IMG/VR virus record: IMGVR_UViG_3300025102_000008
Span: 1-32,825 of that record
DNA: 32,825 nucleotides
Source: a virus
Strand: one strand, 5' to 3'
The notes under the pieces were generated by a model. That model was not told the DNA's origin, searched no databases, and saw only the letters and a program-made list of their open reading frames with translations. The position numbers and the translations under genes were made by a program. This document shows positions 9,766-30,446 of the stretch, piece by piece (the stretch's first letter is position 1; every line of letters begins with the position of its first letter).

Positions 9766-10404
9766 ATGAAAGTATTAGAATTATTTGCAGGAAGCTGCAC
9801 ATTCACAAGAGAAGCTAAAAATTTAGGTTATGAAACTTTCTCATCTGATTATAAAGAATTTCCTAATATTGATTACTCTGTTGATATACTAGAATTTGAT
9901 ATATCTAAAGTTCCATTTAAACCTGATTTAATATGGGCAAGTCCACCTTGTACTTATTTTAGTGTAGCATCTATTGGTAAACATTGGAACAAAGACCATA
10001 CACCAAAATCCAATAATGCTTTGATTGGTGTTAAGTATGTTCAAAAAACAATAGATATTATAAATCATTTAAAACCTAAATATTGGTATATAGAAAATCC
10101 AAGAGGTAAATTAAGAAAATTAGAAGTTGTAAAAGGTCTTGAAAAAGCAACTGTTTGGTATTGTCAATATGGTGATACAAGAGCAAAACCTACAGATATT
10201 TGGTCTAACAATATTAAATCAATTTATAATCCAAATGGTTGGCAGCCAAGAAAACAATGTTTTAATGGTAATAAAAATTGTCATCATCAACCTGCACCAA
10301 GAGGCAGCCAAACTGGCACACAAGGATTAAAGGGTAATTATGAAAGAAGTAAGTTGCCTATAGAATTATGTAAAGAAATATTAACACAAAGTAAAATAAT
10401 TTAA
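9766..10404 (+). CDS. DNA (cytosine-5) methyltransferase, short phage type
   Basis: A 212-residue C5-MTase. Motif I is LELFAGSCTF (residues 4-13, AdoMet binding), motif IV is SPPC with catalytic Cys62, motif VI is ENP near 111, and the C-terminal APRGSQTGTQGLKG...RSKLPIELCKEI resembles the motif IX-X end of phage enzymes. It is shorter than bacterial C5-MTases (over 300 residues), so the target-recognition domain is minimal. It may protect phage DNA from restriction or from the nuclease just upstream. Its glycine codons are mostly GGT while the upstream gene prefers GGA, a sign of separate acquisition. Confidence 0.85.
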   Translation: MKVLELFAGSCTFTREAKNLGYETFSSDYKEFPNIDYSVDILEFDISKVPFKPDLIWASPPCTYFSVASIGKHWNKDHTPKSNNALIGVKYVQKTIDIINHLKPKYWYIENPRGKLRKLEVVKGLEKATVWYCQYGDTRAKPTDIWSNNIKSIYNPNGWQPRKQCFNGNKNCHHQPAPRGSQTGTQGLKGNYERSKLPIELCKEILTQSKII

Positions 10405-10433
10405 CAAATGATAAGTTTTTTTATTGTATTATT
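10403..10433 (+). promoter_or_regulatory. Late promoter-like element upstream of TerS
   Basis: AACAAA (10403-10408), N14, ATTGTATTATT (10423-10433; one mismatch to ATTGTWATANT). It is the only copy not touching a start codon, lying 23 bases upstream of TerS. This favours a promoter over a translation signal. Confidence 0.6.
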
Positions 10434-10456
10434 GATTAATCAAGTTATTTCAAGTT

Positions 10457-10687
10457 ATGGCACACGGAGGAAAAAGACAAGGAGCAGGTAGAAAACCTAA
10501 AGCAGATGAGTTAAATCTAATAGAGAAACTAACTCCATTAGAAGATGCTGCATATCAAGCTCTAAAAGCTGGAGTAGAAAAAGGAGACTTCAAGTATGTT
10601 CAGCTGTTCTATAATTACTACGCAGGTAAACCAAGAGAAACAAAAGACATTACAATAAACGAAGACACTCCACTGTTTATTGATTAA
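10457..10687 (+). CDS. terS: Terminase small subunit-like protein
   Basis: A 76-residue protein directly upstream of TerL with a TAATG overlap. The N-terminus GGKRQGAGRKPK is the AT-hook-like opening seen in many phage TerS and packaging-associated proteins. The remainder is a short helical region (EKLTPLEDAAYQALKAGVEKGDFKYVQLFYNYYAGKPRE). It is short for a TerS (usually over 120 residues) and may be only the DNA-binding part. Call rests on position and the GAGRK motif. Confidence 0.7.
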   Translation: MAHGGKRQGAGRKPKADELNLIEKLTPLEDAAYQALKAGVEKGDFKYVQLFYNYYAGKPRETKDITINEDTPLFID

Positions 10688-11859
10688 TGAGAGTCAGAAA
10701 GACGATAGCGTTTGACAAACTTCTTGCACTAGACAAAAGAGTTAAGATTGTAAGAGGAGGAACTTCTGCTGGTAAAACTATTTGTATACTATCTATCTTA
10801 ATAGATCAGGCAATAAGAAATGCAGGCAGCGAGATAAGTGTAGTATCTGAATCAGTTCCACATTTAAGAAGAGGAGCATTAAAAGACTTTCTAAACATCC
10901 TAAAAGGATTAAACAGATATTACGAAGAGAAGTATAATAGAACAACATTAAAATACACATTCTCTAATGGAAGTTATATAGAGTTCTTTTCTACAGACCA
11001 ACCAGACAAATTAAGAGGTTCTAGAAGAACAGATCTATTTATTAATGAGTGTAATAATGTTAGCTTTGAAGCTTACCAGCAACTATCAATAAGAACCTCT
11101 GGAGATATTTGGCTTGATTACAACCCTACTAATTTATTCTGGGTAGATAAAGAATTAATCAATACAGAAGACACAAACTTCATTACATTAACTTACAAGG
11201 ACAATAATGAACTTCCTGATAGTATTATCAAAGAAATAGAGAAAGCTCGTCTAAAGGCATCTAAAAGCTCTTATTGGGCTAATTGGTGGAGAGTGTATGG
11301 ACTAGGTGAGATAGGAACACTTGAAGGAGCTTGTATTCCTGATTGGAAACAAATAAGTGTAATACCACCACATGCTAGGTTATTATGTCATGGATTAGAC
11401 TTTGGTTACTCTGTTGACGAAGCAGCATTAGTAGCATTATACAAACTAGATGATGCATATATATTTGATGAAGTACTCTATAGAAAAGGAATGTTAAACT
11501 CACACATAAGTCAATACCTAAAAAACAATCAGATACTAGGGAGCTTATGGGCAGATAGTGCAGAGCCTAAATCAATAGCAGAACTAAATACATATGGACA
11601 TCAAGTATTCCCAGTTACAAAAGGTAGAGATAGTATAGTGTATGGTATTAACCTTATAAACCAAAACAATGTATTTGTTACACAAAGATCAAAGAACTTA
11701 ATTAAAGAGCTTCAGGGTTATGTCTGGATGAAAGACAAACAAGGTAACACACTACAAAAGCCTAACCCTATGTCTGGAGACCATAGTATTGATGCAGCTA
11801 GATATGCATTAACCTCACAATTACAAGATCCTAATAAAGGAGAATATCACATTTGGTAA
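10687..11859 (+). CDS. terL: Terminase large subunit
   Basis: A 390-residue packaging motor. Walker A is GGTSAGKT (24-31), Walker B TDLFINE (about 114-120) with the catalytic Glu, and the RNase H-like nuclease has HGLDFGY (Asp about 238), WADSAEP (about 289) and DHSIDAARYAL (about 365) supplying the metal-binding acids. It is of the PBSX/phage_terminase_3 type. It fills the ATPase role that pushes DNA into the prohead and cuts concatemers. The portal that it docks on lies 16 kb downstream, which is unusual. Confidence 0.95.
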   Translation: MRVRKTIAFDKLLALDKRVKIVRGGTSAGKTICILSILIDQAIRNAGSEISVVSESVPHLRRGALKDFLNILKGLNRYYEEKYNRTTLKYTFSNGSYIEFFSTDQPDKLRGSRRTDLFINECNNVSFEAYQQLSIRTSGDIWLDYNPTNLFWVDKELINTEDTNFITLTYKDNNELPDSIIKEIEKARLKASKSSYWANWWRVYGLGEIGTLEGACIPDWKQISVIPPHARLLCHGLDFGYSVDEAALVALYKLDDAYIFDEVLYRKGMLNSHISQYLKNNQILGSLWADSAEPKSIAELNTYGHQVFPVTKGRDSIVYGINLINQNNVFVTQRSKNLIKELQGYVWMKDKQGNTLQKPNPMSGDHSIDAARYALTSQLQDPNKGEYHIW

Positions 11860-11876
11860 AAATAATTAACAATATA

Positions 11877-11906
11877 TTTGGATTGTTCAAAAAATGTTTA
11901 TATATT
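11877..11906 (+). promoter_or_regulatory. Possible host-type promoter for the small-gene cassette
   Basis: TTTG (11877-11880), 18-bp spacer, TATATATT (11899-11906), close to the Bacteroidota TTTG...TAnnTTTG pattern but imperfect at the second box. It lies in the 73-bp gap before 11933. It does not match the late element. Confidence 0.3.
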
Positions 11907-11932
11907 AGCTTCATAATTAAAATAAATAAACA

Positions 11933-12181
11933 ATGAAAACAAAAACACAAACTTCAGAAACGATGTTCAAATCTAAAGTAGATATCGATACATCAGACAT
12001 ATTCTTTAACTTTGGTGCTGTAACTTATAACGAAAAAGTTAGAGAGTCTAATAAAAAAGGATATTTCTTTGATGCTGATTATTATCTAAAACAAGATGCA
12101 GAGAATTTCTTAAACATTATACATAGACCTAATATAACTCCACAAGATTTAGTGGATGATTTTTTATATAGCAGACTATAA
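11933..12181 (+). CDS. Hypothetical protein, first of accessory cassette
   Basis: An 82-residue protein, rich in Asp, Phe and Asn, with no membrane segment and no Cys. It is the first of five small genes placed between TerL and the tail operon and bounded by a possible promoter and a terminator. Its ATG is preceded by an AT-only leader (AATAAATAAACA). No family recognised. Confidence 0.6.
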   Translation: MKTKTQTSETMFKSKVDIDTSDIFFNFGAVTYNEKVRESNKKGYFFDADYYLKQDAENFLNIIHRPNITPQDLVDDFLYSRL

Positions 12182-12191
12182 TTAAATACAG

Positions 12192-12410
12192 ATGCTGATA
12201 ACCCGTAGTAACATAAAAACACTAAAACCGATATCAACAATGGATTATGATCCTAGTGAGGAATTTAGTAAGTCTAGTGTGAATGGGCAGCATCTTTTTA
12301 GAAACAAAGAAATGAAAACAAAAGAAATGATTAAATGGGCTTTTATTACTTACACAGTAATATTTATTATATTAGGAATTATAGGAACACTAACTTATTA
12401 CCTACCATAA
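12192..12410 (+). CDS. Small single-pass membrane protein
   Basis: A 72-residue protein with a soluble N-terminal 45 residues and one C-terminal membrane helix (WAFITYTVIFIILGIIGTLTYYL). Its stop overlaps the next start (TAATG). A second membrane protein follows directly. Phage proteins like this often act in superinfection exclusion or host takeover; that is inference from topology and location. Confidence 0.6.
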   Translation: MLITRSNIKTLKPISTMDYDPSEEFSKSSVNGQHLFRNKEMKTKEMIKWAFITYTVIFIILGIIGTLTYYLP

Positions 12411-12571
12411 TGAAGACAGTATACAAAGCAACACAACAAGACATTAACATGCCTGTAGATAAAAACCTACAGAGAGACATAGTTAAATACCTATGCTGGG
12501 GATTACCTCAACTTACATTCTGGATGATAATGCTAACAAACTTTTTATTTTATGTCATTAGAGGAAGCTAG
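12410..12571 (+). CDS. Small membrane protein
   Basis: A 53-residue protein. The ATG at 12410 overlaps the previous stop; an upstream in-frame ATG at 12335 would bury the start deep in the previous gene and is less likely. The C-terminal half (LCWGLPQLTFWMIMLTNFLFYVIRG) is a membrane segment. It overlaps the next gene by 20 bases. Function unknown. Confidence 0.55.
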   Translation: MKTVYKATQQDINMPVDKNLQRDIVKYLCWGLPQLTFWMIMLTNFLFYVIRGS

Positions 12572-12752
12572 AAAGGGGCTATTAATAATCAACCGAGAAT
12601 TGTTTAATCATGGTGGCTTGTCACAAGGTTCATCAATAAGAATCAGTAAAAAACTTTTAAAAGTAATAGATGAAATCGAAAATGAAATCGATAGAGCTGA
12701 AAACCAGAGATCAGTACGAGAAGGAGATGAAGATCTTCAAATGGTGTATTGA
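12552..12752 (+). CDS. Small hypothetical protein
   Basis: A 66-residue soluble protein. The centre (SIRISKKLLKVIDEIENEIDRAENQR) is a likely amphipathic helix, and the end is acidic. It overlaps the next gene by 83 bases, the largest overlap in the window, so one of the two may start further in. No family recognised. Confidence 0.5.
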   Translation: MSLEEARKGLLIINRELFNHGGLSQGSSIRISKKLLKVIDEIENEIDRAENQRSVREGDEDLQMVY

Positions 12753-12975
12753 TAACGATATAAGAGTTTATCGAGAACCAACAAGACTAGGTAAGAAACC
12801 ACCAGTGATAATTGTATTAGATTATAAAGGACAAATTAAAAAAGGATCAGAAGTGTTTACGCAAGGAACAAAAGAGTTGGAACATAAGATAGCAGAAGTA
12901 TATGAATGGGCATATGATAGAGCTCATGATGCATTAGAGAGAGAGCAAAAGATAAAGAGAGACAATAGTACATAA
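12670..12975 (+). CDS. Hypothetical protein, last of accessory cassette
   Basis: A 101-residue protein with an alpha/beta look: KIFKWCIDNDIRVYREPTRLGKKPPVIIVLDYKG followed by a helical, charged C-terminus (ELEHKIAEVYEWAYDRAHDALEREQ). The segment around CIDNDIRVYREP resembles short proteins found in other Bacteroidota phages. A terminator follows 26 bases after its stop. Function unknown. A later start at Met5 is possible. Confidence 0.6.
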   Translation: MKSKMKSIELKTRDQYEKEMKIFKWCIDNDIRVYREPTRLGKKPPVIIVLDYKGQIKKGSEVFTQGTKELEHKIAEVYEWAYDRAHDALEREQKIKRDNST

Positions 12976-13001
12976 TTAAACTTTTCATGTTAGTTAGTTT
13001 T

Positions 13002-13029
13002 GGGGAATCAGAAATGGTTCCCTTTTTTT
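13002..13029 (+). terminator. Rho-independent terminator before the tail operon
   Basis: 7-bp stem GGGAATC/GGTTCCC (one T-G pair) with loop AGAAAT, followed by a run of seven T. It separates the small-gene cassette from the late element that starts two bases later. Confidence 0.8.
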
Positions 13030-13030
13030 A

Positions 13031-13061
13031 TACAAAAAACTGAATAAGTTATTGTTATAAT
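13031..13061 (+). promoter_or_regulatory. Late promoter-like element, tail operon
   Basis: TACAAA (13031-13036), N14, ATTGTTATAAT (13051-13061), ending directly at the ATG of the tail chaperone gene. Same spacing as five other copies. Confidence 0.6.
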
Positions 13062-13724
13062 ATGAAAGTTAAGATACAAGTGCCAGAATCTTTAAGAGAG
13101 ATTAGTTTAGAACAATACCAGAAGTATCATAAGATAAACACAGACGCTAATCAGAACTCTAATTTCTTGCTACATAAGACAGTAGAAATCTTCTGTAATC
13201 TTAATCTCCAGAATGTTATTAAAGTACAGTTTAATAGTGTGATGGAAGTTGTAAGAATTATTAATGACTTATTTAATAAAGACGCTAAACTTGTGCCTAC
13301 TTTTACAATGGATGGAATAGCTTATGGCTTTGTTCCAGATTTAGATAAAATAACTTTAGGAGAATATATAGACCTTGATACTACACTAGGAGACTGGAGC
13401 AACATGCATAAAGCTATGGCAGTATTATACAGACCAATAAAGGACACACTAAAAGACAAATACATCATAGAAGACTATAAAGGATCAGAAGATTCTGAAA
13501 AATATAAACAGATGCCACTTGATATAGTTATGGGTTCTATACTTTTTTTTTACAATTTAAAGAACGAATTACTGAAAACTATCCTGAAATCTTTGAATCA
13601 AGAGGCGATCAAGGGGATGACTATTCAGCAGAGGGAGGATTTGCTAGGAAGTGGGGATGGTATAACTCGCTATATAGATTGGCTGGAGGAGATGCAACCA
13701 AACTTGAATCTGTCAGTGAATTAA
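13062..13724 (+). CDS. Tail assembly chaperone, zero-frame product (G-like)
   Basis: A 220-residue soluble protein, first gene of the long tail transcript and directly downstream of a late element. The N-terminal two thirds is an alpha/beta region (IQVPESLREISLEQYQKYHKIN; YGFVPDLDKITLGEYIDLD). The last 57 residues, after the T-run, include TIQQREDLLGSGDGITRYIDWLEEM. By position, size and the frameshift arrangement I read it as the counterpart of lambda gpG. It would hold the tape measure during tail assembly. Its stop at 13722-13724 lies inside the alternative -1 frame extension. Confidence 0.75.
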   Translation: MKVKIQVPESLREISLEQYQKYHKINTDANQNSNFLLHKTVEIFCNLNLQNVIKVQFNSVMEVVRIINDLFNKDAKLVPTFTMDGIAYGFVPDLDKITLGEYIDLDTTLGDWSNMHKAMAVLYRPIKDTLKDKYIIEDYKGSEDSEKYKQMPLDIVMGSILFFYNLKNELLKTILKSLNQEAIKGMTIQQREDLLGSGDGITRYIDWLEEMQPNLNLSVN

Positions 13725-13810
13725 ATGTACATTCATCATTATACTATTTAGCATATGAGCAAGACAAATTACAGACAGAGAAAAATTTAATTAAACAGAA
13801 AACAAGATGA
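13062..13810 (+). CDS. Tail assembly chaperone, -1 frameshift fusion (GT-like)
   Basis: Predicted 249-residue product: 163 residues from the zero frame, then a -1 shift on T-TTT-TTT (13544-13550), then 86 residues ending at TGA 13808-13810. The -1 frame is open from 13523. The extension includes GGFARKWGWYNSLYRLAGGD and VSELNVHSSLYYLAYEQDK, a clear protein-like pattern also familiar from Bacteroidota phage tail genes. It fills the stretch after the zero-frame stop and its stop overlaps the next ATG (ATGA). The alternative is a homopolymer length error, but both frames look coding. Confidence 0.75.
13543..13551 (+). promoter_or_regulatory. Slippery T9 run, probable -1 frameshift site
   Basis: Zero frame reads CTT TTT TTT TAC. 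The heptamer T-TTT-TTT fits X-XXY-YYZ, so both Phe tRNAs re-pair perfectly after a -1 slip. No clear downstream pseudoknot was seen. Confidence 0.7.
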
Positions 13811-14262
13811 CAGGATTTTATAACATAACAAATAAGATAAAAGAAACACTAGAAGCAGAACCATTTGTAAACAATGTGTCATATGGGAGCTTTGACAATG
13901 TAGATCTTAACAAGCAAACTATATTTCCTTTATCACATGTAATGGTAAATCAATGTACTATAAATTCTAAAGTGCTAACGTTTAATATCTCTGTTATGTG
14001 TATGGATATAGTAGACGTAAGTAAAGAAGAAACAACAGATTTATTTTTAGGTAATGACAATGAGCAAGACGTGCTAAACACACAACTAGGGATATTAGAT
14101 AGACTAATGGCATTACTACAAAGAGGAGATTTATATTCAGACAAATATCAAGTGGACACAGATGTTACTTGTGAGCCTTTTGTAGATAGATTTGAAAACA
14201 AGTTAGCTGGATGGGTAGCAACATTTGATGTACAGATACAAAACGATATGACGATATGCTAA
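13807..14262 (+). CDS. Probable tail completion / minor tail structural protein
   Basis: A 151-residue protein whose ATG overlaps the stop of the frameshift product. It begins FYNITNKIKETLEAEPFVNNVSYG and ends with a beta pattern (KLAGWVATFDVQIQND), the layout of small tail-terminator or connector proteins. It overlaps the next gene by 7 bases. No exact family is recognised; the structural role comes from its shape and the surrounding genes. Confidence 0.6.
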   Translation: MTGFYNITNKIKETLEAEPFVNNVSYGSFDNVDLNKQTIFPLSHVMVNQCTINSKVLTFNISVMCMDIVDVSKEETTDLFLGNDNEQDVLNTQLGILDRLMALLQRGDLYSDKYQVDTDVTCEPFVDRFENKLAGWVATFDVQIQNDMTIC

Positions 14263-14786
14263 ACAAAGAGAACACAAGAAAAGCATTAGAAGCATTTAAA
14301 GATTATGTAATCCAACAGTCTAGAGCTAATCTAACTAAAAAGAATAAGAATGTATCTAAACAGCTTTACAACTCTCTAAAAGGTATAGTAGATGTTATGC
14401 CTAACTCGTTTAGATTAAAGTTTGAGATGGAAGATTATGGTAAGTTCCAAGATCAAGGGGTTAAAGGAGCAACAAGCACATACCCAGAAAGCACTAAAAG
14501 TCCATTTAAGTTCGGTACAGGCACAGGTAAGAAAGGTGGATTATCAGGAGGTATAAAGAAATGGGTAGAAGCAAGAAGATTTCAATTCAGAGACAAAAAA
14601 GGAAAGTTTACTAGTTATGAGTCTACAGCTTATGTTATTTCCAGATCAATATGGAATAAAGGAATAAAAGCAAGTTTGTTTTTTACTAAACCTTTTGAGA
14701 AAGGATTTAAAAGATTACCAGAAGAATTATTAGAAGCATACGGATTAGACGTAGAAGAATTTATAGATTACACAATAAAACAATAG
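14256..14786 (+). CDS. HK97 gp10-like tail/neck protein
   Basis: A 176-residue basic protein. It has an N-terminal helix (ENTRKALEAFKDYVIQQSRANL), a YNSLKG segment, EDYGKFQDQGVKG (typical of gp10-like proteins that contain an E-x-G-x-x-x-Q/P-x-G loop), and a C-terminal helix with KPFEKGFKRLPEELLEAYGLDVEEF. It is probably a head-tail or tail-completion protein. Neighbours on both sides are structural and tightly spaced. Confidence 0.6.
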   Translation: MLNKENTRKALEAFKDYVIQQSRANLTKKNKNVSKQLYNSLKGIVDVMPNSFRLKFEMEDYGKFQDQGVKGATSTYPESTKSPFKFGTGTGKKGGLSGGIKKWVEARRFQFRDKKGKFTSYESTAYVISRSIWNKGIKASLFFTKPFEKGFKRLPEELLEAYGLDVEEFIDYTIKQ

Positions 14787-14789
14787 AAC

Positions 14790-15725
14790 ATGGCAAACAT
14801 ATTATTAAGAAGTCCTTTTTATGTATATCAAACACAAAGTGGTGCACAATCAGCAAAATTAGAATTAGAGATTGATGGAACATTAAGATATACAATTATA
14901 AAAGACACACCTACAACATCAGTGACATTTGAAATAGCACAGCTAGCAAGAGATTATCTAGACATAACATATGGGGGAAGCTATCAAAATCAATCAGTAG
15001 ATATATCTGGAGAGATTACATGGTATCAATCAACTAATGCAACAGGAGGAACAACAGGAACACCAGTTACATTTACACATAAAGGCTTTGATGGTTATTG
15101 GGATTACTACAATACATCTTATACAAAAGAGTTTTGTTCTACTGGTTCTTGTTTAATGCAAGACAATACAACAATATATGTGCCTGAAGGAAAAGGAGGG
15201 TTTATACCAGTGTTATCGTCAGGATCTATAATATATAATTCATTTACTGGTTCAACAACAACATTATCTGTAGGATCACCACCTGTAACAATTACAATTA
15301 AAAGACAAGACTGCTCAAAGTACATGCCTATGCAAATAACATTTGTAAATAAGTATGGAGCACTACAAGATCTTTATTTTGATAAAAAGAGTACAGAGAC
15401 AATGGTAACAACGTCAGAAAAATATAACAACAGCAATATATCTTCTTCTGGGACTTATTCAGTAACATCACATCAGTATAGAACATTAAGTAAATCAGGA
15501 AGAGAAAAAATGACATTAAACACAGGGTTTATAGATGAGGGAATGAATGAGGTAATGAAACAATTAATGTTATCAGAGCAAGTTTGGATGCACATGGGAT
15601 CAGAGATACATCCTATTGATATAGCATCAAATTCATTGACATTTAAAACAAAAGTTAATGATAAATTAATTAACTACACAATAGAAGTAGAACACGCTCA
15701 TGAACACATTGATAGAGTTAGATAA
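14790..15725 (+). CDS. Tail structural protein, possible distal tail component
   Basis: A 311-residue beta-rich protein lying directly before the large hub protein (one-base TAATG overlap). It begins NILLRSPFYVYQTQSGAQSAKLELEIDG, has a Thr/Gly/Ser-rich centre with a few Cys (CSTGSCLMQD) and ends in DEGMNEVMKQLMLSEQVWMHMGSEIHPIDI...INYTIEVEHAHEHIDRVR. Similar proteins precede the tail hub in Bacteroidota phages; the function is not established. A distal tail (Dit-like) role is inferred from gene order. Confidence 0.6.
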   Translation: MANILLRSPFYVYQTQSGAQSAKLELEIDGTLRYTIIKDTPTTSVTFEIAQLARDYLDITYGGSYQNQSVDISGEITWYQSTNATGGTTGTPVTFTHKGFDGYWDYYNTSYTKEFCSTGSCLMQDNTTIYVPEGKGGFIPVLSSGSIIYNSFTGSTTTLSVGSPPVTITIKRQDCSKYMPMQITFVNKYGALQDLYFDKKSTETMVTTSEKYNNSNISSSGTYSVTSHQYRTLSKSGREKMTLNTGFIDEGMNEVMKQLMLSEQVWMHMGSEIHPIDIASNSLTFKTKVNDKLINYTIEVEHAHEHIDRVR

Positions 15726-20719: not shown

Positions 20720-20720
20720 T

Positions 20721-21739: not shown

Positions 21740-23448
21740 TGGCAAAAGAAATAGATATTGATATTAATGTAAAAGCAAAAGATGCTGAAAAAAACTTACA
21801 AACAGTAGGTGTAGGGCTTAAAGGTATACAAGAAGGAGCTAAAGCTGCAGGTAAATCAGTGTTTACGTTAAACAGTATATTAAAAGCTAATGTTGCCATA
21901 AAAGCATTTACTGTTGTATTAGATGTTCTTAAAGAAACATTTATGTCTAACCAGAAAGTTGTAGATACATTTGCTACCGCAACTACAGCTTTAGAAATAG
22001 TTTTTAATGATTTATTTAAATTTATAGAATCAAATATAGGAACAGTAGTAGATTTCTTTAAAGGAATATTTGAAGATCCATTAGGAGCAATACAAGATTT
22101 TGGTAAAGCAGTTAAAGAAAACCTTATAGAAAGATTTAACAGTTATATAGAAACTTTAGGTCTATTAGGAAGTGCTGTGAAAAAAGTATTTAGTGGTGAT
22201 TTTGCAGGAGCATTTGAAGATGTAAAAAGTGCAGGAAAAGAATCTATTGATATATTAACAGGTGTAGATAATAGCGTTGAAAAAATCGCAGAAACAACCA
22301 GTAAAGTAGTAAAAGCCGCAACAGACTATACTAAAGCAACAATAGAACAAGCAAAAGAAACTACAAAATTAAATAAAATTGCAGAGTTAAGTGCTGCTCA
22401 AAATAGAATTATATTAGAACAAAAAGATAGAGAAGCAGAAAAATTACGTCAAGTTAGAGATGAAGAAAGAAATACTATTGATGAAAGAATAATAGCTAAC
22501 AACGAATTAAAAGAAGTACTTGAAGAGCAAGAGAGATTAATGCTTGCAAATGTAGATGCTCAAATAGCATCAGCACAAGCACAAGTAGATATAAACAACA
22601 ATCAAGAAAATCAGTTAATATTACTAGAAGCACAAGCAGAAAAAGTTGGTGTATTAGCACAAATAGAAGGATTTAGATCTGAACAAAAAGCAAATGATTT
22701 AGCTTTAGATAGAGAGAGGTTAGAACTACAACAAACAATAGCACAAGGAGAATTAGAAGTGCAAAACATATTAGCACAAGGTCAAGCAGAACTAATAGAC
22801 AATGAAGTGTTAAGATTAGAAAAACAAAAAGAGATAGCTTTACAAGAGCAGCTTCTAACAAGACAAGTATTAGAAGATAAAAAAGCAAGCTATAAAGAAG
22901 GAACACAAGCCTTTATTGATGCATCTAATGAATTAAATAGTTTTAATGCAGAAAGTGCGGTTACTCAACAAAAACTAGACAAAGAAATAGCAGATGCAAA
23001 AGTATCAGCAGTGACTGGAGCATTAGGTTCACTAGCTAGTTTAGTTGGAGAGAATAGTAAGTTTGGAAAAGCAATAGCTATAACACAAGCTATAATAGAT
23101 ACTTATGCAGGTGCAAACAAAGCTTTAGGTCAAGGAGGTATATTTGGATTTATTGGTGCAGCATCAGTTATTGCAGCAGGTTTTGCGAACATTAGAAATA
23201 TAACAGCAACTAAAGAGCCAGCACCACCAAGTTTTGCAAAAGGAGGAACAGGAGGATCAGTACCTACTCCAGCAATATCAACTCCACCTGCATTTAATGT
23301 AGTAGGTGCAACAGCAGAAAGCCAACTAGCACAAACAATAGCAGGAGCACAACAAAAACCAGTAAGAGCTTATGTGGTTAGTACAGATGTAAGTACACAA
23401 CAAGCGTTAGATAGAAAAACTGCAAATCAAGCAACACTAGGAAACTAA
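21739..23448 (+). CDS. Tape measure protein
   Basis: A 569-residue protein. It opens with EIDIDINVKAKDAEKNLQTVGVGLKGIQEG, the usual tape-measure start. Hydrophobic helices lie at about 45-65, a long Ala/Gln/Glu/Lys coiled-coil region covers about 180-420, and the C-terminal membrane-active stretch GIFGFIGAASVIAAGFANI is at about 470-490, followed by a Pro/Gly-rich tail. It sets tail length; at the customary 1.5 A per residue it predicts a tail of about 85 nm. No peptidase or transglycosylase motif was seen. It is the last gene before the second late element. Confidence 0.85.
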   Translation: MAKEIDIDINVKAKDAEKNLQTVGVGLKGIQEGAKAAGKSVFTLNSILKANVAIKAFTVVLDVLKETFMSNQKVVDTFATATTALEIVFNDLFKFIESNIGTVVDFFKGIFEDPLGAIQDFGKAVKENLIERFNSYIETLGLLGSAVKKVFSGDFAGAFEDVKSAGKESIDILTGVDNSVEKIAETTSKVVKAATDYTKATIEQAKETTKLNKIAELSAAQNRIILEQKDREAEKLRQVRDEERNTIDERIIANNELKEVLEEQERLMLANVDAQIASAQAQVDINNNQENQLILLEAQAEKVGVLAQIEGFRSEQKANDLALDRERLELQQTIAQGELEVQNILAQGQAELIDNEVLRLEKQKEIALQEQLLTRQVLEDKKASYKEGTQAFIDASNELNSFNAESAVTQQKLDKEIADAKVSAVTGALGSLASLVGENSKFGKAIAITQAIIDTYAGANKALGQGGIFGFIGAASVIAAGFANIRNITATKEPAPPSFAKGGTGGSVPTPAISTPPAFNVVGATAESQLAQTIAGAQQKPVRAYVVSTDVSTQQALDRKTANQATLGN

Positions 23449-23479
23449 AACAAAATAATAAAAACAATATTGTTATAAT
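23449..23479 (+). promoter_or_regulatory. Late promoter-like element, protease gene
   Basis: AACAAA (23449-23454), N14, ATTGTTATAAT (23469-23479), immediately before the ATG at 23480. This copy is identical to consensus. Confidence 0.6.
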
Positions 23480-24718
23480 ATGGACATCATAGAATTATTT
23501 ATAGACGAAGAGGATAACGTTTCAGGAATTGATGCAATAAGTATAGTAGAAAACCCCGCAATTCAAGAAGATTTTGTCTTTTTAAAGAATCAAGAATTTA
23601 AGTTAGCAGAACTAGATAAAGAGAAAAAGCTTTTACTAGGACCAGCATTAATTCCTAATAAACCAATTTACAGAAAAAGTGGTGACAAAGAGTATTATAT
23701 ATACTTTTCTAGAAACACTGTTAGACAAGCAAGTGAGCTGTTTTTAAAAAGAGCTAAACAACATAGATCTACATTAGAACACGAATCACCATTAAATGGA
23801 CTTACAGTAGTAGAGAGTTGGATAGTAGAAGGTGAGCAAGATAAGACAAGACTATATGATATGGATGTGCCTTTAGGTACTTGGATGGTTTCTATGAAAG
23901 TAGACAATGATGATGTTTGGGATAACTATATTAAAACAGGTAAAGTAAAAGGGTTTTCAATAGAAGGATATTTTGCTGATAAACTAGAAAGACCTAACGA
24001 GCCTAATAAACTTTCAGTATGTGATTGTGAAGATAAACTAGATAGTTGTATATGTAAAAACAAAGAGATACAAAAAATAGAAGAAGATGAAGCAAAAGAT
24101 TTATTAAGTGCTGTAAAATCTATTTTAAAACAAGATAAAGACACTTCTGGAGAAACTATAGAGCTAGAAACTTATAATGACTATCCAAACTCTGTTGCTA
24201 ACAATGCAAAAAGAGGTATAGATTTAAATAAAAAAGTAAATAACAAGTGTGCAACACAAGTAGGTAAAGTAAGGGCTCAACAACTAGCAAGAAAAGAAAA
24301 ACTAACAGTACAAACAATAAAAAGAATGTATAGCTACTTATCTAGAGCAGAAGAGTATTATAAAACAGGAGACACAGAAGCATGTGGATATATTTCTTAT
24401 TTATTATGGGGAGGTAAATCTGCAAAGTCTTGGGCAGAGAGTAAGCTTAAAAGTTTAGATCAACTAGACGACCAAAAATTAGCATCTATAGAGATAGACG
24501 GTAAAATAGCATATGACACAAAACAAGAAGCAATAATAAAAGCTGAAGAAATGGGATGTGAAGGTTACCACGAACATGAAGTAGAGGGTAAGACTTGGTT
24601 TATGCCTTGTGAGACGCATGAGCAAGAATTAAAAAAACCTTGTCAAGCAGGATATGAGATGATAGGTTTTAAAATGAAAAACGGAAGAAGAGTTCCTAAT
24701 TGTGTACCGATAAAGTAA
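23480..24718 (+). CDS. XkdF-like prohead protease with C-terminal extensions
   Basis: A 412-residue protein. Residues 1 to about 170 match phage head maturation proteases of the XkdF type: SGIDAISIVENPAI, HRSTLEHESPLNGLTVVESWIVEG (His and Ser candidates), PLGTWMVSMKVDNDDVWDNYIKTGKVKGFSIEGYF. A Cys cluster (CDC then CIC, about residues 181-192) follows. About 225-330 is a helical region (GKVRAQQLARKEKLTVQTIKRMYSYLSRAEEYY...GYISYLLWGGKSAKSWAESKL). The end is CQAGYEMIGFKMKNGRRVPNCVP. It should cleave scaffold and capsid during maturation. The extensions are of unknown role. Confidence 0.8.
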   Translation: MDIIELFIDEEDNVSGIDAISIVENPAIQEDFVFLKNQEFKLAELDKEKKLLLGPALIPNKPIYRKSGDKEYYIYFSRNTVRQASELFLKRAKQHRSTLEHESPLNGLTVVESWIVEGEQDKTRLYDMDVPLGTWMVSMKVDNDDVWDNYIKTGKVKGFSIEGYFADKLERPNEPNKLSVCDCEDKLDSCICKNKEIQKIEEDEAKDLLSAVKSILKQDKDTSGETIELETYNDYPNSVANNAKRGIDLNKKVNNKCATQVGKVRAQQLARKEKLTVQTIKRMYSYLSRAEEYYKTGDTEACGYISYLLWGGKSAKSWAESKLKSLDQLDDQKLASIEIDGKIAYDTKQEAIIKAEEMGCEGYHEHEVEGKTWFMPCETHEQELKKPCQAGYEMIGFKMKNGRRVPNCVPIK

Positions 24719-24918
24719 TGAGAAGAAGATATACAGTTCCATCATCAGGAAGAAGAGGGTGTTTATGTAGAGATAGAGATACATATTCAATAGAATGTTG
24801 TAATGACCAAGATTACATGGCACAAGGAATTGGTGATATAACAGGACCAATAGGACTTCTGTTGCAAGAGAATGGCGATTATATATTACAAGAAAATAAT
24901 AGTAAAATAGAATTATAA
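24718..24918 (+). CDS. Small Cys-rich hypothetical protein
   Basis: A 66-residue protein starting in a TAATG overlap with the protease gene; an upstream GTG at 24700 is less likely. The first half is basic with CLC and CC (RRGCLCRDRDTYSIECCNDQ). The second half contains MAQGIGDITG. Similar short proteins occur in Bacteroidota phage head blocks, with no known role. The Cys could bind metal. Confidence 0.6.
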   Translation: MRRRYTVPSSGRRGCLCRDRDTYSIECCNDQDYMAQGIGDITGPIGLLLQENGDYILQENNSKIEL

Positions 24919-24921
24919 AAA

Positions 24922-25380
24922 ATGGCAAATAAAAAAATATCAGCATTAAACGCTGCAACAGCATTGCAAGGAACAGAATTGATACCTGTAGTACAAAGCA
25001 GTGAAACAAAATACTCAACAGTAAAAGACATTGTAAACTATTTAGTTCCTACTACATTAACGGTTAGCGTAGCAGGTGGTACTGTAGATTTAGGAAGTTC
25101 AACTTATACAAATAGTGAGCTTATTGTTCTTACTTGGTCAGGATCAGCAGGAACTATAGAACTTACTTTGCCAGATGCTACAACCACAGCGAACACAAAC
25201 AGAGTAATCAGAATTATATCTGATACAACATTTTCAACCTCAACGCATGCAGATTTAACACCAGCTTCTGGTCAAACACTAGATGGTTCTTCTTCTGCAT
25301 ATAGAGTTAATAAGGAATATGAAGGTGTAACTGTTTGGAGCAACGGAACAGAGTGGTTTATAATACAAGCTAAAGCTTAA
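24922..25380 (+). CDS. Virion structural protein, probable head or fibre decoration
   Basis: A 152-residue protein that begins ANKKISALNAATALQGTELIPVVQSSETKYSTVKDIVNYL, a common N-terminal motif in phage structural proteins that attach to the virion. The body is beta-rich with Thr/Ser/Gly runs (GTIELTLPDATTTANTNRVIRIIS; NKEYEGVTVWSNGTEWFIIQAKA). It lies between protease and scaffold. A decoration or short fibre role is likely. Confidence 0.65.
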   Translation: MANKKISALNAATALQGTELIPVVQSSETKYSTVKDIVNYLVPTTLTVSVAGGTVDLGSSTYTNSELIVLTWSGSAGTIELTLPDATTTANTNRVIRIISDTTFSTSTHADLTPASGQTLDGSSSAYRVNKEYEGVTVWSNGTEWFIIQAKA

Positions 25381-25386
25381 AAATAT

Positions 25387-25417
25387 AACAAACAGAAATT
25401 AATTTAATTGTAATACT
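25387..25417 (+). promoter_or_regulatory. Late promoter-like element, scaffold/capsid operon
   Basis: AACAAA (25387-25392), N14, ATTGTAATACT (25407-25417), ending at the ATG at 25418. Confidence 0.6.
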
Positions 25418-26068
25418 ATGAAAGCGACAGAAATGTTAAAACAAGTAAAAGACCTACTAGGTATGAACGCTGCAGAAGTAGAAATAAATTTAGAGGAGCA
25501 AGATGTTAATCTTGAAGAGACTAAAGAAGAAACTACTGAATTAGCTACAGATCAAGTAGAAGAAACAAAAGTAGAGCTTGCAACTATGCAGCTTGAAAAT
25601 GGTACAACAGTAGAAGCAGAAGCTTTTGAAGCTGGTAATGAAATTTTTATCGTTACTGAAGATGAGAAAGTAGCTTTACCAGTTGGGGAATACACTCTTG
25701 AAGATGGTTTAAAATTAACCATAGAGCAAGAAGGTATAATTGCTTCTATGGGCGAAGCTGAAGTGGAAGAAGTTGAAGCTGCAGTAGATTACGCTACAAA
25801 AGAAGAGTTAGCGGAAGTAAGAAAAGCCGTTGAAGATATTGTAACTATGATTGAAGAATTAGGTTACGGTAAAAAAGACGAAGAAATGGCTTCTGAAGAT
25901 ATTAAAAAAGAATTATCTGAAGAACCAACAAAAGAAATCTTATCTGAAGTAGAAAAGGTAAAACACAATCCAGAAAGTGAAGAAAAAACACAATTAAACA
26001 TTCCTTCAAATTCTAGACCTATGAATACTTTAGACAGGGTAATGCAAACAATATCAAATTTTAATTAA
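25418..26068 (+). CDS. Probable scaffolding protein
   Basis: A 216-residue strongly acidic protein directly before the capsid gene. Long Glu/Val/Ala stretches (EEQDVNLEETKEETTELATDQVEETK) surround a small beta region (LENGTTVEAEAFEAGNEIFIVTEDEKVALPVGEYTLEDGLKL), and a helical segment (EELAEVRKAVEDIVTMIEEL) precedes a basic/polar tail ending LDRVMQTISNF. Length, charge and position fit a scaffold removed by the upstream protease. No sequence family is claimed. Confidence 0.7.
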   Translation: MKATEMLKQVKDLLGMNAAEVEINLEEQDVNLEETKEETTELATDQVEETKVELATMQLENGTTVEAEAFEAGNEIFIVTEDEKVALPVGEYTLEDGLKLTIEQEGIIASMGEAEVEEVEAAVDYATKEELAEVRKAVEDIVTMIEELGYGKKDEEMASEDIKKELSEEPTKEILSEVEKVKHNPESEEKTQLNIPSNSRPMNTLDRVMQTISNFN

Positions 26069-26079
26069 AATAAATAAAA

Positions 26080-27024
26080 ATGGCAAATAGCACAACATCA
26101 ATAACTACTACTTATGCAGGAGAATTTGCAGGCAAATATGTATCTGCAGCTCTTTTAAGTGGAAACACATTGGCTAACAATTTAATTACAGTTAAGCCAA
26201 ACGTGAAATACAAAGAAGTAATGAAAAAAGTTGCTTCTACAAGTATTGTTAAAAACGGAGCATGTGACTTTTCAGGTCAAGCAGACGTTTTAACTTTAAC
26301 AGAAAGAATATTACAACCAGAAGAATTCCAAGTGAATTTAGAGCTTTGTAAAAAAGACTACGTACAAGATTGGGAAGCTGTTCAAATGGGATATTCTACT
26401 ATAAACGAAACTTTACCTCCATCATTTTCTGATTTCTTAATCGGACATGTATCAGCTAAAGTTGCTCAAAAAATCGAAAACAATATCTGGACAGGAACAA
26501 ACGGAACAGATGGAGAGTTTGATGGATTTATAACTACATTAGGAGCTGATTCTGATGTAAATGACGTAACAGGTACAGCATCAACAGCAGCTAACATTAT
26601 TACAGAGCTTGGTAAAATTGCTGACGCAATTCCTTCTGCAGCATATGGTTCAGAAGATATGACTATCTACTTACCATCTAATATGTATAGAAACTACGTT
26701 AGAGCATTAGGCGGATTTGGAGCATCTGGTTTAGGAGCTGCAGGTACTGATAACAAAGGTACACAGTGGTACTCAAAAGGAGCAGGTCTTCAGTTTGATG
26801 GTATTCCAGTTGTATTAGCACAAGGTTTATCTAGCAATGACGCAGTTGCTGCAGAAAAATCAAACTTATTCTTCGGTACAGGTTTATTATCAGATCACAA
26901 CGAAGTAAAAGTATTAGACATGGCTGATCTTGATGGTTCTCAAAATGTAAGAATGGTAATGAGATTTACTGCTGGTATTCAGCACGCAATCGGATCTGAC
27001 ATTGTATTATACGCAACATCGTAA
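26080..27024 (+). CDS. Major capsid protein, HK97-like fold
   Basis: A 314-residue protein with features of HK97-type capsids in Bacteroidota phages: an N-terminal TTTYAGEFAGKYVSAALLSGNTLANNLITVKPN, a central KKVASTSIVKNGACDF, a P-domain-like segment (NMYRNYVRALGGFGASG), IPVVLAQGLSSN and a C-terminal FRFTAGIQHAIGSDIVLYA pattern (MRFTAGIQHAIGSDIVLY in this protein). It is followed by a strong terminator. Codons look more uniform than in neighbouring genes, as expected for high expression. There is no fused protease or scaffold. Confidence 0.85.
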   Translation: MANSTTSITTTYAGEFAGKYVSAALLSGNTLANNLITVKPNVKYKEVMKKVASTSIVKNGACDFSGQADVLTLTERILQPEEFQVNLELCKKDYVQDWEAVQMGYSTINETLPPSFSDFLIGHVSAKVAQKIENNIWTGTNGTDGEFDGFITTLGADSDVNDVTGTASTAANIITELGKIADAIPSAAYGSEDMTIYLPSNMYRNYVRALGGFGASGLGAAGTDNKGTQWYSKGAGLQFDGIPVVLAQGLSSNDAVAAEKSNLFFGTGLLSDHNEVKVLDMADLDGSQNVRMVMRFTAGIQHAIGSDIVLYATS

Positions 27025-27049
27025 TTAAAGATTGTATAACATAAGAAAG

Positions 27050-27081
27050 GGTAGGTAGCTAAACTGCCTACCTTTTTTTTT
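27050..27081 (+). terminator. Strong hairpin terminator between capsid and major tail genes
   Basis: 9-bp stem GGTAGGTAG/CTGCCTACC (one T-G pair), loop CTAAA, followed by nine T. Only 16 bases separate the T-run from the next ATG, so the next gene depends on read-through. Confidence 0.9.
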
Positions 27082-27097
27082 AAAAAATAAAAATAAT

Positions 27098-27646
27098 ATG
27101 GCTTGTGATTTAACTAAAGGAAGAAAAGAACCTTGTAAAGACGTAGTTGGAGGTATAAGAAAAGTATATTTTACTGATTTTGGTGATTTTGGAACTGTAA
27201 CAAGTGCAGACGAACAAATTACTGATATGAGTGGATCTTTTACTGCCTTTGAATATGACTTAAAAGGAAATTCATCTTTCGAAACAACAGTAAATAGCTC
27301 AAGAGAAAATGGAACAACGTTTTTCGAGCAAACATTAAACATAACATTAAAAAAATTATCTAAAGAAGATAATAAAGAATTAAAGCTGTTAGCATATGGG
27401 AGACCACATATAGCAGTAGAAGATTATAATGGTAATGTTATGGTAATGGGATTAGAAAATGGAGCAGACGTAAGTGGAGGAACAATAGTAACAGGAGCAG
27501 CAATGGGAGACCTTTCAGGTTATACATTAACGTTCACTGCACAGGAAACTTCACCAGCTAAATTTTTAGATAGTCCTACAGCAGCAGATCCATATGCAGG
27601 TATGGGTTCAGCTACAGTAACAGTAACTGAAGGAACTAACTCTTAA
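27098..27646 (+). CDS. Major tail (tube) protein
   Basis: A 182-residue beta-rich protein with the short-tube layout: ACDLTKGRKEPCKDVVGGIRKVYFTDFGD near the start, FEYDLKGNSSFETTVNSSRENGTTFFEQTLNITLKKLSKEDNKELKLLAYGRPHIAVED in the middle and a hydrophobic loop before the C-terminus (GYTLTFTAQETSPAKF). The pattern with two Cys and a KGIRK(V/A)Y-like strand is usual for Bacteroidota siphovirus tubes. Flanked by terminators on both sides. Expected to be abundant. Confidence 0.8.
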   Translation: MACDLTKGRKEPCKDVVGGIRKVYFTDFGDFGTVTSADEQITDMSGSFTAFEYDLKGNSSFETTVNSSRENGTTFFEQTLNITLKKLSKEDNKELKLLAYGRPHIAVEDYNGNVMVMGLENGADVSGGTIVTGAAMGDLSGYTLTFTAQETSPAKFLDSPTAADPYAGMGSATVTVTEGTNS

Positions 27647-27669
27647 TAATCCTTTAAATTAGATAAAGA

Positions 27670-27693
27670 AGGCACTAATTGGTGCCTTTTTTT
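27670..27693 (+). terminator. Terminator after the major tail gene
   Basis: 5-bp stem GGCAC/GTGCC (27671-27675, 27682-27686), 6-base loop TAATTG, extended by an A-U pair and followed by seven T. It is followed 13 bases later by a late element. Confidence 0.8.
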
Positions 27694-27706
27694 ATGCTTA
27701 ATAATT

Positions 27707-27737
27707 AACAAAATAACATTTATTTTATTGTTATAAT
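27707..27737 (+). promoter_or_regulatory. Late promoter-like element, portal operon
   Basis: AACAAA (27707-27712), N14, ATTGTTATAAT (27727-27737), ending at the ATG at 27738 and just downstream of a terminator. Confidence 0.65.
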
Positions 27738-28085
27738 ATGATAATATTACAGAACAGTTCTAGTTCTCAAACGATAAATTTTATTCCAAGAGAATACGTA
27801 GCATCTGATAGCAACATTTATAACATATCAATTATAAATGAAACGACAAACTCATCAGTATATGATGAAGATACAAATACATTTACCTTACTAGATTATT
27901 ACTATCAGTATTCAGATGTATTTACGTTAGTGGAAGATACGTTTTATACACTAACAATTAAAAAAAGTGGAAATGTTATTTATAAAGATAAAATATTTTG
28001 TACTAATCAAACTGTAACAAATTATTCAGTAAATAATAACGAGTATGAACCACAAGAAACAACAAACGATTTTATAGTACTATAA
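27738..28085 (+). CDS. Small structural protein upstream of portal
   Basis: A 115-residue beta-rich protein, first gene after the terminator and late element. It begins IILQNSSSSQTINFIPREYV and has many Tyr/Thr/Asn in alternating strands (YNISIINETTNSSVYDEDTN; FTLVEDTFYTLTIKK). Comparable proteins lie next to portal in related phages, but I do not know their role. The start is supported by the adjacent motif. Confidence 0.6.
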   Translation: MIILQNSSSSQTINFIPREYVASDSNIYNISIINETTNSSVYDEDTNTFTLLDYYYQYSDVFTLVEDTFYTLTIKKSGNVIYKDKIFCTNQTVTNYSVNNNEYEPQETTNDFIVL

Positions 28086-28086
28086 T

Positions 28087-29841
28087 ATGGAGAATCTACA
28101 CATAGTAAATTTATCAGAATATAATAAACCTAAAATATCAGAAGATAAACATAGGGATTGGGTTAATTACGGAGAAAACAATGATTACTATTCTTACTTA
28201 ATTAATTTATTTATTAATTCTGCAACAAACAATGCAATTATTCAAGGAATATCGCAATTAATATATGGCAAGGGATTAGATGCAACAGATAGTTCACAAA
28301 AGCCAGATGAGTATGCTGCAATGAGATCTATTTTTAAAAATGAAGATTTAAGAAATGTAATTCTAGATTTAAAACTATTAGGAGAAGGAAGTTTTCAGGT
28401 TTTATATCAAGATGGTAAAGTAGTAAAGTCAGAGCATTTTCCAAGACAAACATTAAGAGCTGAAAAATGTAATGATGATGGTGAAATTGAAGCTTACTAT
28501 TATTTCCATGACTGGAGCAAGATAAAAGCAAATAGTAAACCTAAAAGAATAGCAGCTTTTGGATTTGGTAATGGTAAAGAGCCAGAGATTAAAATTGTAA
28601 AAAGATATGTAAGTGGATATGATTATTATTGTCCAGTAGATTATCAAGGAGCATTAGCTTATGCTGAATTAGAGTCAGAAATATCAGACTATTTAATCAA
28701 TGATGTGCAAAATAATTTTTCAGGAACTAAAGTTGTTAATTTTAATAATGGCGTTCCAGATAGAGAAAAGCAAATGCAGGTTAAGTCAGATGTAATGAGT
28801 AAGCTTACAGGAGCAAGAGGAGAAAAAGTAATTATAGCCTTTAACAATAACGCAGAAAGCAAAACAACAATAGATGATGTACCTTTAAATGATGCACCAG
28901 CACATTATCAGTATTTATCTACAGAGTGTTCAAATAAACTAATTATAGGACACAGAGTAACATCACCATTGCTTTTAGGTATAAGAACAGAAAATAATGG
29001 ACTAGGATCAAACTCTGATGAAATTAAAACAGCTTCTTTGTTATTTGACAACGTTACAATAAAGCCTTATCAAGAGCTTTTAATTGGCTGTATAGACTCT
29101 ATACTTGCAGTAAACGAGATAAGCCTTAATTTGTACTTTAAAACGCTTCAGCCGCTTGCTTTCATAGAAACAGATAATGCTGTAACAGACGAATCAAGAG
29201 AAGAAGAGACAGGAGTTAAATTATCATCAGATATTGATGATGAAACATTAAACAATATAGCTGATAAATTAATTCAGACTGGTCAAGACGAACAGGATCT
29301 TTTAGATGATGGTTGGGAGCTTGTAGACGAGAGAGCTGTAGACCATGAGCAAGAAGAAGGATTAGATAAAATGATAGGACTAGCAAAAACAGGTACTGCA
29401 AGACCAAATGCTAAATCAGAACAAGATGGAGAAAACGAAGAGGGTTTAAGGTTTAGAGTAAGGTATCAATATGCACCTTTAAAAGTAAGCGATAATTCTA
29501 GAGATTTTTGTCAAAAAATGGTATCAGCAAAAAAGATTTATAGAAAAGAAGATATAGATAAAATGTCATCTGAAGAAGTAAATGCTGGTTTCGGACCTAA
29601 AGGTTCAGTTAAAACTTATGATATATGGTTATATAAAGGTGGTGCTAATTGTCATCACTTCTGGATGCGTAAAACATACATGAGTAAAAAAGAAGGTGTT
29701 AATCCAGATCCTAAAAATCCTAGATCTGAAGTTACAGTAAACAAAGCAAGAAAAGAAGGCTTTAAACCAGAAAAAAACAAGAAAGAAGTGGCAACTAGAC
29801 CAATAGATATGCCAAATAACGGATATAAAAACCCTAGATAA
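28087..29841 (+). CDS. Portal protein with C-terminal extension
   Basis: A 584-residue protein. Residues 1 to about 360 follow the Bacteroidota portal pattern: NAIIQGISQLIYGKGLDA, LDLKLLGEGSFQVLYQDGKV, HDWSKIKANSKPKRIAAFG, YDYYCPVDYQGALAYAELESEISDYLINDVQNN, GHRVTSPLLLGIRTENNGLGSNSDEIKTA. An acidic linker (about 365-450) leads to a domain at about 453-560 with FRVRYQYAPL, SRDFCQKMVSAKKIYRKEDIDKMS, YDIWLYKGGANCHHFWMRKTY. The latter recalls Mu gpF-like head-morphogenesis domains by its Cys and His positions. A basic, Pro-rich end follows. The fusion may bind DNA or capsid. The portal is the head vertex gate for DNA. Confidence 0.85.
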   Translation: MENLHIVNLSEYNKPKISEDKHRDWVNYGENNDYYSYLINLFINSATNNAIIQGISQLIYGKGLDATDSSQKPDEYAAMRSIFKNEDLRNVILDLKLLGEGSFQVLYQDGKVVKSEHFPRQTLRAEKCNDDGEIEAYYYFHDWSKIKANSKPKRIAAFGFGNGKEPEIKIVKRYVSGYDYYCPVDYQGALAYAELESEISDYLINDVQNNFSGTKVVNFNNGVPDREKQMQVKSDVMSKLTGARGEKVIIAFNNNAESKTTIDDVPLNDAPAHYQYLSTECSNKLIIGHRVTSPLLLGIRTENNGLGSNSDEIKTASLLFDNVTIKPYQELLIGCIDSILAVNEISLNLYFKTLQPLAFIETDNAVTDESREEETGVKLSSDIDDETLNNIADKLIQTGQDEQDLLDDGWELVDERAVDHEQEEGLDKMIGLAKTGTARPNAKSEQDGENEEGLRFRVRYQYAPLKVSDNSRDFCQKMVSAKKIYRKEDIDKMSSEEVNAGFGPKGSVKTYDIWLYKGGANCHHFWMRKTYMSKKEGVNPDPKNPRSEVTVNKARKEGFKPEKNKKEVATRPIDMPNNGYKNPR

Positions 29842-29843
29842 AA

Positions 29844-30344
29844 ATGGCACAAGCATTATTAATTAGCAGAAAAGATATAGTAAAGTTTACAGCAATGAAT
29901 GGTAATGTTGATACTGATAAGTTTATTCAGTTTATCAAGATAGCACAAGACATTCATATTCAAAACTATTTAGGTACAGATTTATTAAATAAGATAGAAG
30001 CTGACATAATAGCAAGTAGTTTAACTGGAAGTTATTTAAATCTAGTTACAGATTATGTAAAGCCAATGCTTATTCACTGGGCTATGGTAGAGTATTTGCC
30101 TTTTGCTGCATATACACTCGCTAATAAAGGAGTCTTTAAACACTCTAGCGAAAATGCAACAAACGTAGACAAAACGGAAATTGACTTTCTTATTGAAAAG
30201 GAAAGAAATTTAGCCCAGTACTATACGGACAGATTTATTAGCTACATGAGCTTTAATAATGACAGTTTTCCAGAATACAACAGTAACTCTAACGAGGATG
30301 TATATCCTGATAAAGATGCTAGTTTCGAGGGATGGGTATTATAA
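29844..30344 (+). CDS. Head-tail connector (gp6-like)
   Basis: A 166-residue helical protein directly after portal. Key parts are KFIKIAQDIHIQNYLGTDLLNKI and DYVKPMLIHWAMVEYLPFAAYTLANKGVFKHSSENA, the usual connector pattern of helices around a conserved YLG(T)DLL and an H-W/E-Y-L segment. The end is an acidic, disordered tail. It plugs the portal and joins the tail. Gene spacing of two bases after portal fits. Confidence 0.8.
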   Translation: MAQALLISRKDIVKFTAMNGNVDTDKFIQFIKIAQDIHIQNYLGTDLLNKIEADIIASSLTGSYLNLVTDYVKPMLIHWAMVEYLPFAAYTLANKGVFKHSSENATNVDKTEIDFLIEKERNLAQYYTDRFISYMSFNNDSFPEYNSNSNEDVYPDKDASFEGWVL

Positions 30345-30442
30345 AGAAAAAATACAAACCAAAAGCCTATAATGTGCAAAGATTAAAAAAATACATTATA
30401 GACTTGACAAAGAATAACAAAAAATTAAAAAACTTATTGTAA
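30332..30442 (+). CDS. Tiny basic protein
   Basis: A 36-residue ORF overlapping the connector by 13 bases. Over a third of the residues are Lys/Arg. Its 3' end overlaps the next late element, so the stop (30440-30442) lies within the promoter-like box. It fills an otherwise empty 100-base gap, but could be fortuitous. Function unknown. Confidence 0.4.
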   Translation: MGIIKKKYKPKAYNVQRLKKYIIDLTKNNKKLKNLL

Positions 30443-30446
30443 TAGT
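30416..30446 (+). promoter_or_regulatory. Late promoter-like element, fibre operon
   Basis: AACAAA (30416-30421), N14, ATTGTAATAGT (30436-30446), ending at the ATG at 30447. Confidence 0.6.

Follow-up and report, generated by a model that had tools for sequence, protein, structure and literature searches.

Probable ECF-type late promoters adjoining start codons, and a candidate phage sigma factor to read them, in a group of marine Bacteroidota phages

Introduction

Phage sigma factors that steer the host RNA polymerase to late genes are an already known kind of regulator. The closest precedent for the locus described here is Salmonella phage 7-11 which, according to PMC8948821, has the late sigma factor SaPh711_gp47 and late promoters of the form GTAAtg-(16)-aCTA. 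The same source places the 7-11 promoters at positions shared with phage phiEco32, with differing sequences, and gives the phiEco32 gp36 promoters as a single element, tAATGTAtA. In T4 (gp55) and SPO1 (gp28 and gp34), phage sigma factors redirect the host polymerase to middle or late genes, as cited in PMC9429907.

Little is known about the control of late transcription in phages of Bacteroidota. On the host side, Flavobacterium psychrophilum uses TAnnTTTG in its main promoters and a CGT box in an ECF class (PMC9723704). Translation in F. johnsoniae benefits from A at -3, -6, -12 and -13 (PMC6847099).

Here we analyzed 32,825 nt of viral DNA (IMG/VR record IMGVR_UViG_3300025102_000008; the whole stretch is referred to as the window). 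We propose that it carries ECF-type, phage-specific late promoters, which a phage sigma factor would use together with the host core RNA polymerase and which would start RNA at or near the AUG. We assign this reading as a whole a probability of about 0.8.

Results

Six copies of a bipartite element at the starts of late gene blocks

The window represents a circular genome of ~32.7 kb with an exact 127-bp terminal direct repeat (1-127 and 32699-32825), so the six sites described below should be the full set or close to it. A first-pass annotation, made from the sequence by eye, had reported six copies of the element AACAAA-N14-ATTGTWATANT with fixed internal spacing and little variation. We recovered all of them, uniformly spaced and on the + strand. 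Four of the six are exact; the copy at 13031 has T for the first A, and the copy at 10403, before TerS, departs from the right box at one base. In five of the six an ATG directly follows the right box, as had been claimed, and in the sixth it ends 23 bp from the TerS ATG (10457).

Gene assignments from PHROGs and Pfam placed each copy at the start of a late block. Copy 1 (10403-10433) precedes the TerS/TerL block (10457-11859), with a predicted RNA start at G10434. Copy 2 (13031-13061; left box TACAAA) adjoins the ATG at 13062 and heads the tail block. Copy 3 (23449-23479) occupies the entire 31-bp intergenic gap between a stop at 23448 and the ATG of the head protease gene at 23480. Copy 4 (25387-25417) adjoins the ATG at 25418, ahead of that gene and a capsid-type protein gene (26080, assigned from a weak virion-structural PHROG match only), and copy 5 (27707-27737) adjoins the ATG at 27738, ahead of that gene and the portal gene (28087). 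Copy 6 (30416-30446) adjoins the ATG at 30447 and heads the fibre block, which runs across the junction toward lysis genes; M15 peptidase and holin genes lie downstream of the fibre gene. The DUF7483 fibre gene itself extends from 31547 across the junction to 2499.

The block before TerS encodes NinG, SSB, helicase, exonuclease and methyltransferase, and tail and fibre genes lie elsewhere in the window. The earlier statement that copies stand only before late blocks (head packaging, tail, head and fibre) held, and we found none in the early block of the window. Two copies had been noted to follow terminators, and we found terminator-like structures before two of them: a hairpin with a T-run on the + strand (13002-13023, from the scan) lies just 5' of copy 2, and a palindromic hairpin followed by a T-run (about 27669-27688; + strand by eye, listed on the - strand by the scan) lies just 5' of copy 5.

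We assessed how often such matches arise by chance. With up to three mismatches to the element, the window contains 15 matches compared to 6.1 ± 2.4 in shuffled sequences. The exact pattern matched four times in forward orientation and not at all in reverse or with a reversed-pattern control. A position-weight matrix, proposed earlier as a check, was built solely from 36 sites of distant relatives, which avoids circularity, and was applied to both window strands, where the six copies took ranks 1 to 6 (21.4-28.4 bits). The best match elsewhere scored 11.0 bits; equally good matches in early or random coding sequence, which had been named in advance as evidence against a promoter, were not seen. 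In 40 simulated genomes, the best match per genome averaged 10.5 bits, and the single highest, in one genome, reached 22.9. One lower-scoring copy could therefore arise by chance; six at six block starts could not. An Rfam search of the window returned nothing.

The element is conserved before orthologous late genes

We gathered approximately 230 viral loci with TerL, capsid-block and sigma queries, and also examined sigma-centred loci and 35 whole records; these genomes are not independent of each other. AACAAA-N14-ATTGT was found at the same places in relatives, the boxes being conserved whereas the spacer sequence diverges. The distance between the boxes is exactly 14 bp in 90 of 109 forward matches. 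Out of 232 distinct sites over all loci, 184 precede homologues of late genes of the window, nearly always the same six genes, and homologues of early genes have no site before them. This count favours late sites, since both late-gene queries and the pattern itself served in part to pick the loci. By homologue, the sites fall before the genes at 27738 (57), 23480 (44), 25418 (32), 30447 (19) and 13062 (17), before TerS (14) and before the gene at 30614 (1). The element is present upstream of the relatives' orthologous late genes, where its absence had been put forward beforehand as an argument against the promoter reading. A stringent pattern followed by ATG was also searched over viral contigs; among the matches listed, proteins of this phage group are encoded at 109 of 112 loci. 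The element was not found at every orthologous late gene of the most divergent genomes, and a search of phage records at the DNA level, using the late block as query, gave no match.

Upstream of TerS orthologues, the element is kept at 17-23 bp. The TerS leaders of the window (10432-10456) and of relatives also hold a conserved 12-base palindrome, TTGATTAATCAA or, in some, TTGAATAATCAA. It is kept even where the -10 box differs and may act as an operator, in packaging or as an RNA element.

The phage encodes an ECF-like sigma factor

The sigma-like protein that the first-pass annotation had pointed out (6382-6921, + strand, 179 aa) is ECF-like, as judged by fold comparison and by relatives that score above the Pfam sigma cut-off. 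It is a small protein with only sigma2 (about residues 1-80) and sigma4 (about 101-169) domains, as is typical of ECF (group IV) factors. The window protein alone scores below the Pfam Sigma70_r2 and Sigma70_r4 cut-offs; the Sigma70_r2 cut-off is passed by a homologue in genome G032, 38% identical to the window protein, and by gp33 of the isolated phage P12024S. Searches of viral contigs yielded 252 confirmed stretches with relatives, of which the best 80 were retained, and the family shows invariant blocks typical of sigma2 and sigma4. Its profile aligns with P12024S gp33 over most of the length (E 1e-6).

The AF2 model of the window protein has a pLDDT of 81.8 and a pTM of 0.43, so the arrangement of the domains is unsure. 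Its top structural matches are ECF sigma factors (M. tuberculosis SigL and SigH, E. coli sigmaE, AlgU and SigW), and the Foldseek and VIA matches are ECF and other sigma factors. Residues 101-169 resemble E. coli sigmaE region 4 on -35 DNA (2h27; Z 8.5, rmsd 2.2 Å, 69 residues) and residues 1-74 resemble SigR (1h3l; Z 8.3, rmsd 2.8 Å); a Z near 8 by itself possibly reflects a common helical arrangement, and the stronger point is that nearly all rows listed are sigma factors. A profile search of PDB sequences returned only spurious antibody matches. For the sigma, tblastn over phage records gave no match and genome contigs yielded no confirmed relative, so this route did not point to a host. 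Two homologues, in G027 (14903-15193) and G014 (28896-29390), contain in-frame stops (three TAG and one TAA). The G027 region is partly masked, and artefact, decay or recoding are possible explanations.

The sigma gene lies in the early/middle block and itself lacks the element; the promoter stands only before late genes, as in systems of the 7-11 type. The early block also encodes a protein (8849-9262) that matches the DNA-binding C-terminal domain of DnaA in Pfam (E 2e-10) and is possibly a replication or regulatory protein.

The -10 box changes in concert and follows the sigma lineage

Per-genome k-mer enrichment recovered the CGTTA box of P12024S and was too weak in most divergent genomes, so we read the upstream regions of orthologous late genes instead. 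Across lineages, the -35 box AACAAA and its position are constant whereas the right (-10) box varies. It is ATTGT in most relatives, ATTAT in G024 and mixed in G025 and G033, CGTTAT in G014, G026 and G027, CGTTA in P12024S, and A/GGTTAT in G028, G029, G030 and G032. The ATTAT variants account for G024 and G033, where the sigma is present and the exact ATTGT pattern absent.

Boxes within a genome are more alike than expected. When genomes were permuted within each late gene, none of 5000 permutations reached the observed within-genome similarity (0.735 versus 0.569 permuted). Placed on the sigma tree, the -10 classes require four changes where the minimum is three, which none of 200 shuffles achieved. 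A close sigma went together with at least two ATTGT sites (15/20 with versus 1/15 without), the exception being a 22.9-kb record that is maybe a fragment. These permutation, tree and co-occurrence figures are indicative because the genomes are related. Separate sites changing together suggest a reader acting in trans, for which the phage sigma is the natural candidate, and we consider it very probable that the protein encoded at 6382-6921 reads the six promoters.

It is unlikely that a host ECF sigma factor reads these promoters and that the phage protein has another role. F. psychrophilum does have seven ECF sigma factors, and one of its promoter classes contains a CGT -10 box (PMC9723704), but host-driven promoters would leave the late-only use unexplained, and the -10 classes track the tree of the phage sigma and are found together with it.

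Promoter type and predicted RNA start

Reading by the phage sigma agrees with the geometry of the element. The first-pass annotation had likened the boxes to the Bacteroidota -33/-7 layout (TTG / TAnnTTTG), an assignment that we replace. The sigma-A -7 box TAnnTTTG occurs in none of the six copies, and the geometry is instead of ECF type, AAC-N17 followed by the -10 box (AAC-N17-ATTGT in the window, AAC-N17-CGTTA in P12024S). A generic sigma-70 scan of the window gave fewer matches than in shuffles. A scan for host promoters (TTG-N17-22-TAnnTTTG) came out hardly above its reversed control overall, and thus gives no firm map of early promoters. At about 3788-3815, a host-type -7 box in TAACTTTGGTGGG lies 5' of the early block and is a candidate early promoter, with a similar TAnnTTTGGTGGG in relatives G005, G010 and G024. 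Another host-type promoter-like site, TTG-N-TATATTTG, lies right after TerL (11853-11932) and is followed by small genes of unknown function.

Among the distinct sites, 144 adjoin an ATG and 34 others lie a few to ~30 bp upstream of one. The displaced sites keep the tail of the element, with -6 being A in 28 of them, -3 being A in 29 and -1 being T in 27; a purine follows the tail in 31 of the 34. Box, tail and purine are therefore part of the element and not start-codon context. Judging from this pattern, the purine is likely the first RNA base, which in the adjoining copies would coincide with the A of the ATG; its spacing from AAC fits ECF promoters. RNA would thus probably begin no more than about 3 nt from that A, and from the geometry and the displaced sites we predict leaderless or near-leaderless late mRNAs. 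Leaderless mRNAs make up 5.5% in F. psychrophilum (PMC9723704), which counts against this prediction.

RNA might alternatively start several bases inside the gene, with a later codon as the true start. The promoters of phages phiEco32 and 7-11 do start 6-9 bp from their last box, according to PMC8948821. We regard this as very unlikely here: at 144 sites, ahead of several different genes, the ATG stays immediately behind the box, and displaced sites have a purine rather than ATG at that position.

An operator of a dimeric late regulator would draw on the imperfect inverted repeat AACAA...TTGTT of some window copies, whose half-sites stand about two helical turns apart, and on weak reverse-strand matches on the same sites. 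That symmetry is gone with the CGTTA, GGTTAT and ATTAT boxes whereas the left box and geometry stay, and the conserved AT tail and purine fall outside such an operator, making this reading highly improbable.

Scarcely more credible is a Bacteroidota translation-initiation (Kozak-like) context in place of a promoter: positions -3 and -6 often carry the A that F. johnsoniae favours there (PMC6847099), but -12 and -13, for which the same rule gives A, are mostly T, neither the fixed left box at -31 nor the invariant G at -8 is explained, and the element is kept at the 34 sites further upstream of ATG, so we set this context aside, in line with the earlier view that a ribosome signal was unlikely.

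Discussion

The reading best supported by the comparative evidence is the one first suggested by eye, a phage-specific late promoter read through the phage's sigma-like protein. The elements are highly likely to be late promoters. Their proposed anatomy comprises a -35 box AACAAA, a 14-bp spacer, a -10 box ATTGT, an AT-only discriminator and an initiating purine. The small sigma factor (6382-6921) would be made from the early/middle block and would bind the host core RNA polymerase; sigma4 would read AACAAA and sigma2 the -10 box, so that the late transcription units would start, and would do so late in infection. Five units are predicted to start at the A of their ATG, which would leave the mRNA without a leader or with at most a few bases, and the TerS mRNA would have a leader of ~23 nt. 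The host is presumably a member of the marine Bacteroidota, as suggested by P12024S and related phages.

We think it reasonably likely that a widespread group of marine Bacteroidota phages places nearly its whole late regulon on ECF-type promoters in which the start codon is also the transcription start. This would be a leaderless class in a phylum without Shine-Dalgarno signals, accompanied by repeated co-evolution of sigma and -10 box. If true, a large group of uncultured marine phages would have a readable regulatory code, and natural matched pairs of sigma and -10 box would be available for studying how ECF specificity changes. Late messages apparently without leaders would also bear on how Bacteroidota ribosomes initiate without Shine-Dalgarno pairing. 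We found no report of this promoter family, and no description of the P12024S promoters, in the open-access literature. Because P12024S is an isolated phage, the promoter system is open to testing in culture.

Compared to known systems, T4 gp55 and SPO1 gp28/gp34 are alike in redirecting the host polymerase, with unrelated promoter sequences, and we know of no fused start codon in either. The Flavobacterium promoter class SM6 shares an ECF-type -10 box (CGT) and the likely host group, but serves host stress and secretion genes with host sigma factors (PMC9723704). Nonlabens (Persicivirga) phages P12024S/L share the late-gene layout and a sigma gene before TerL, with gp33 annotated as Sigma-70 region 2. 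In P12024S, AACAAA-N13/14-CGTTAATA runs into the ATG of late genes; unlike the window, its -10 box is CGTTA instead of ATTGT, and its sigma is far diverged. The phiEco32 system also uses a phage sigma, and its promoter element resembles the right-hand box TATTGTATA of the phage group studied here, a likeness that may be chance; according to PMC8948821, it lacks a -35 element, and gp36 has no homology to region 4.

Phage 7-11 is closest. It pairs a phage sigma with the host core polymerase, as we propose here, and has bipartite promoters at several late blocks (PMC8948821). Promoter activity was measured there, and no promoter adjoining the start codon is reported in the passages of that source consulted. 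The window phage differs from 7-11 in its boxes, in its host phylum and in having the promoter fused to the start codon over most of the late regulon.
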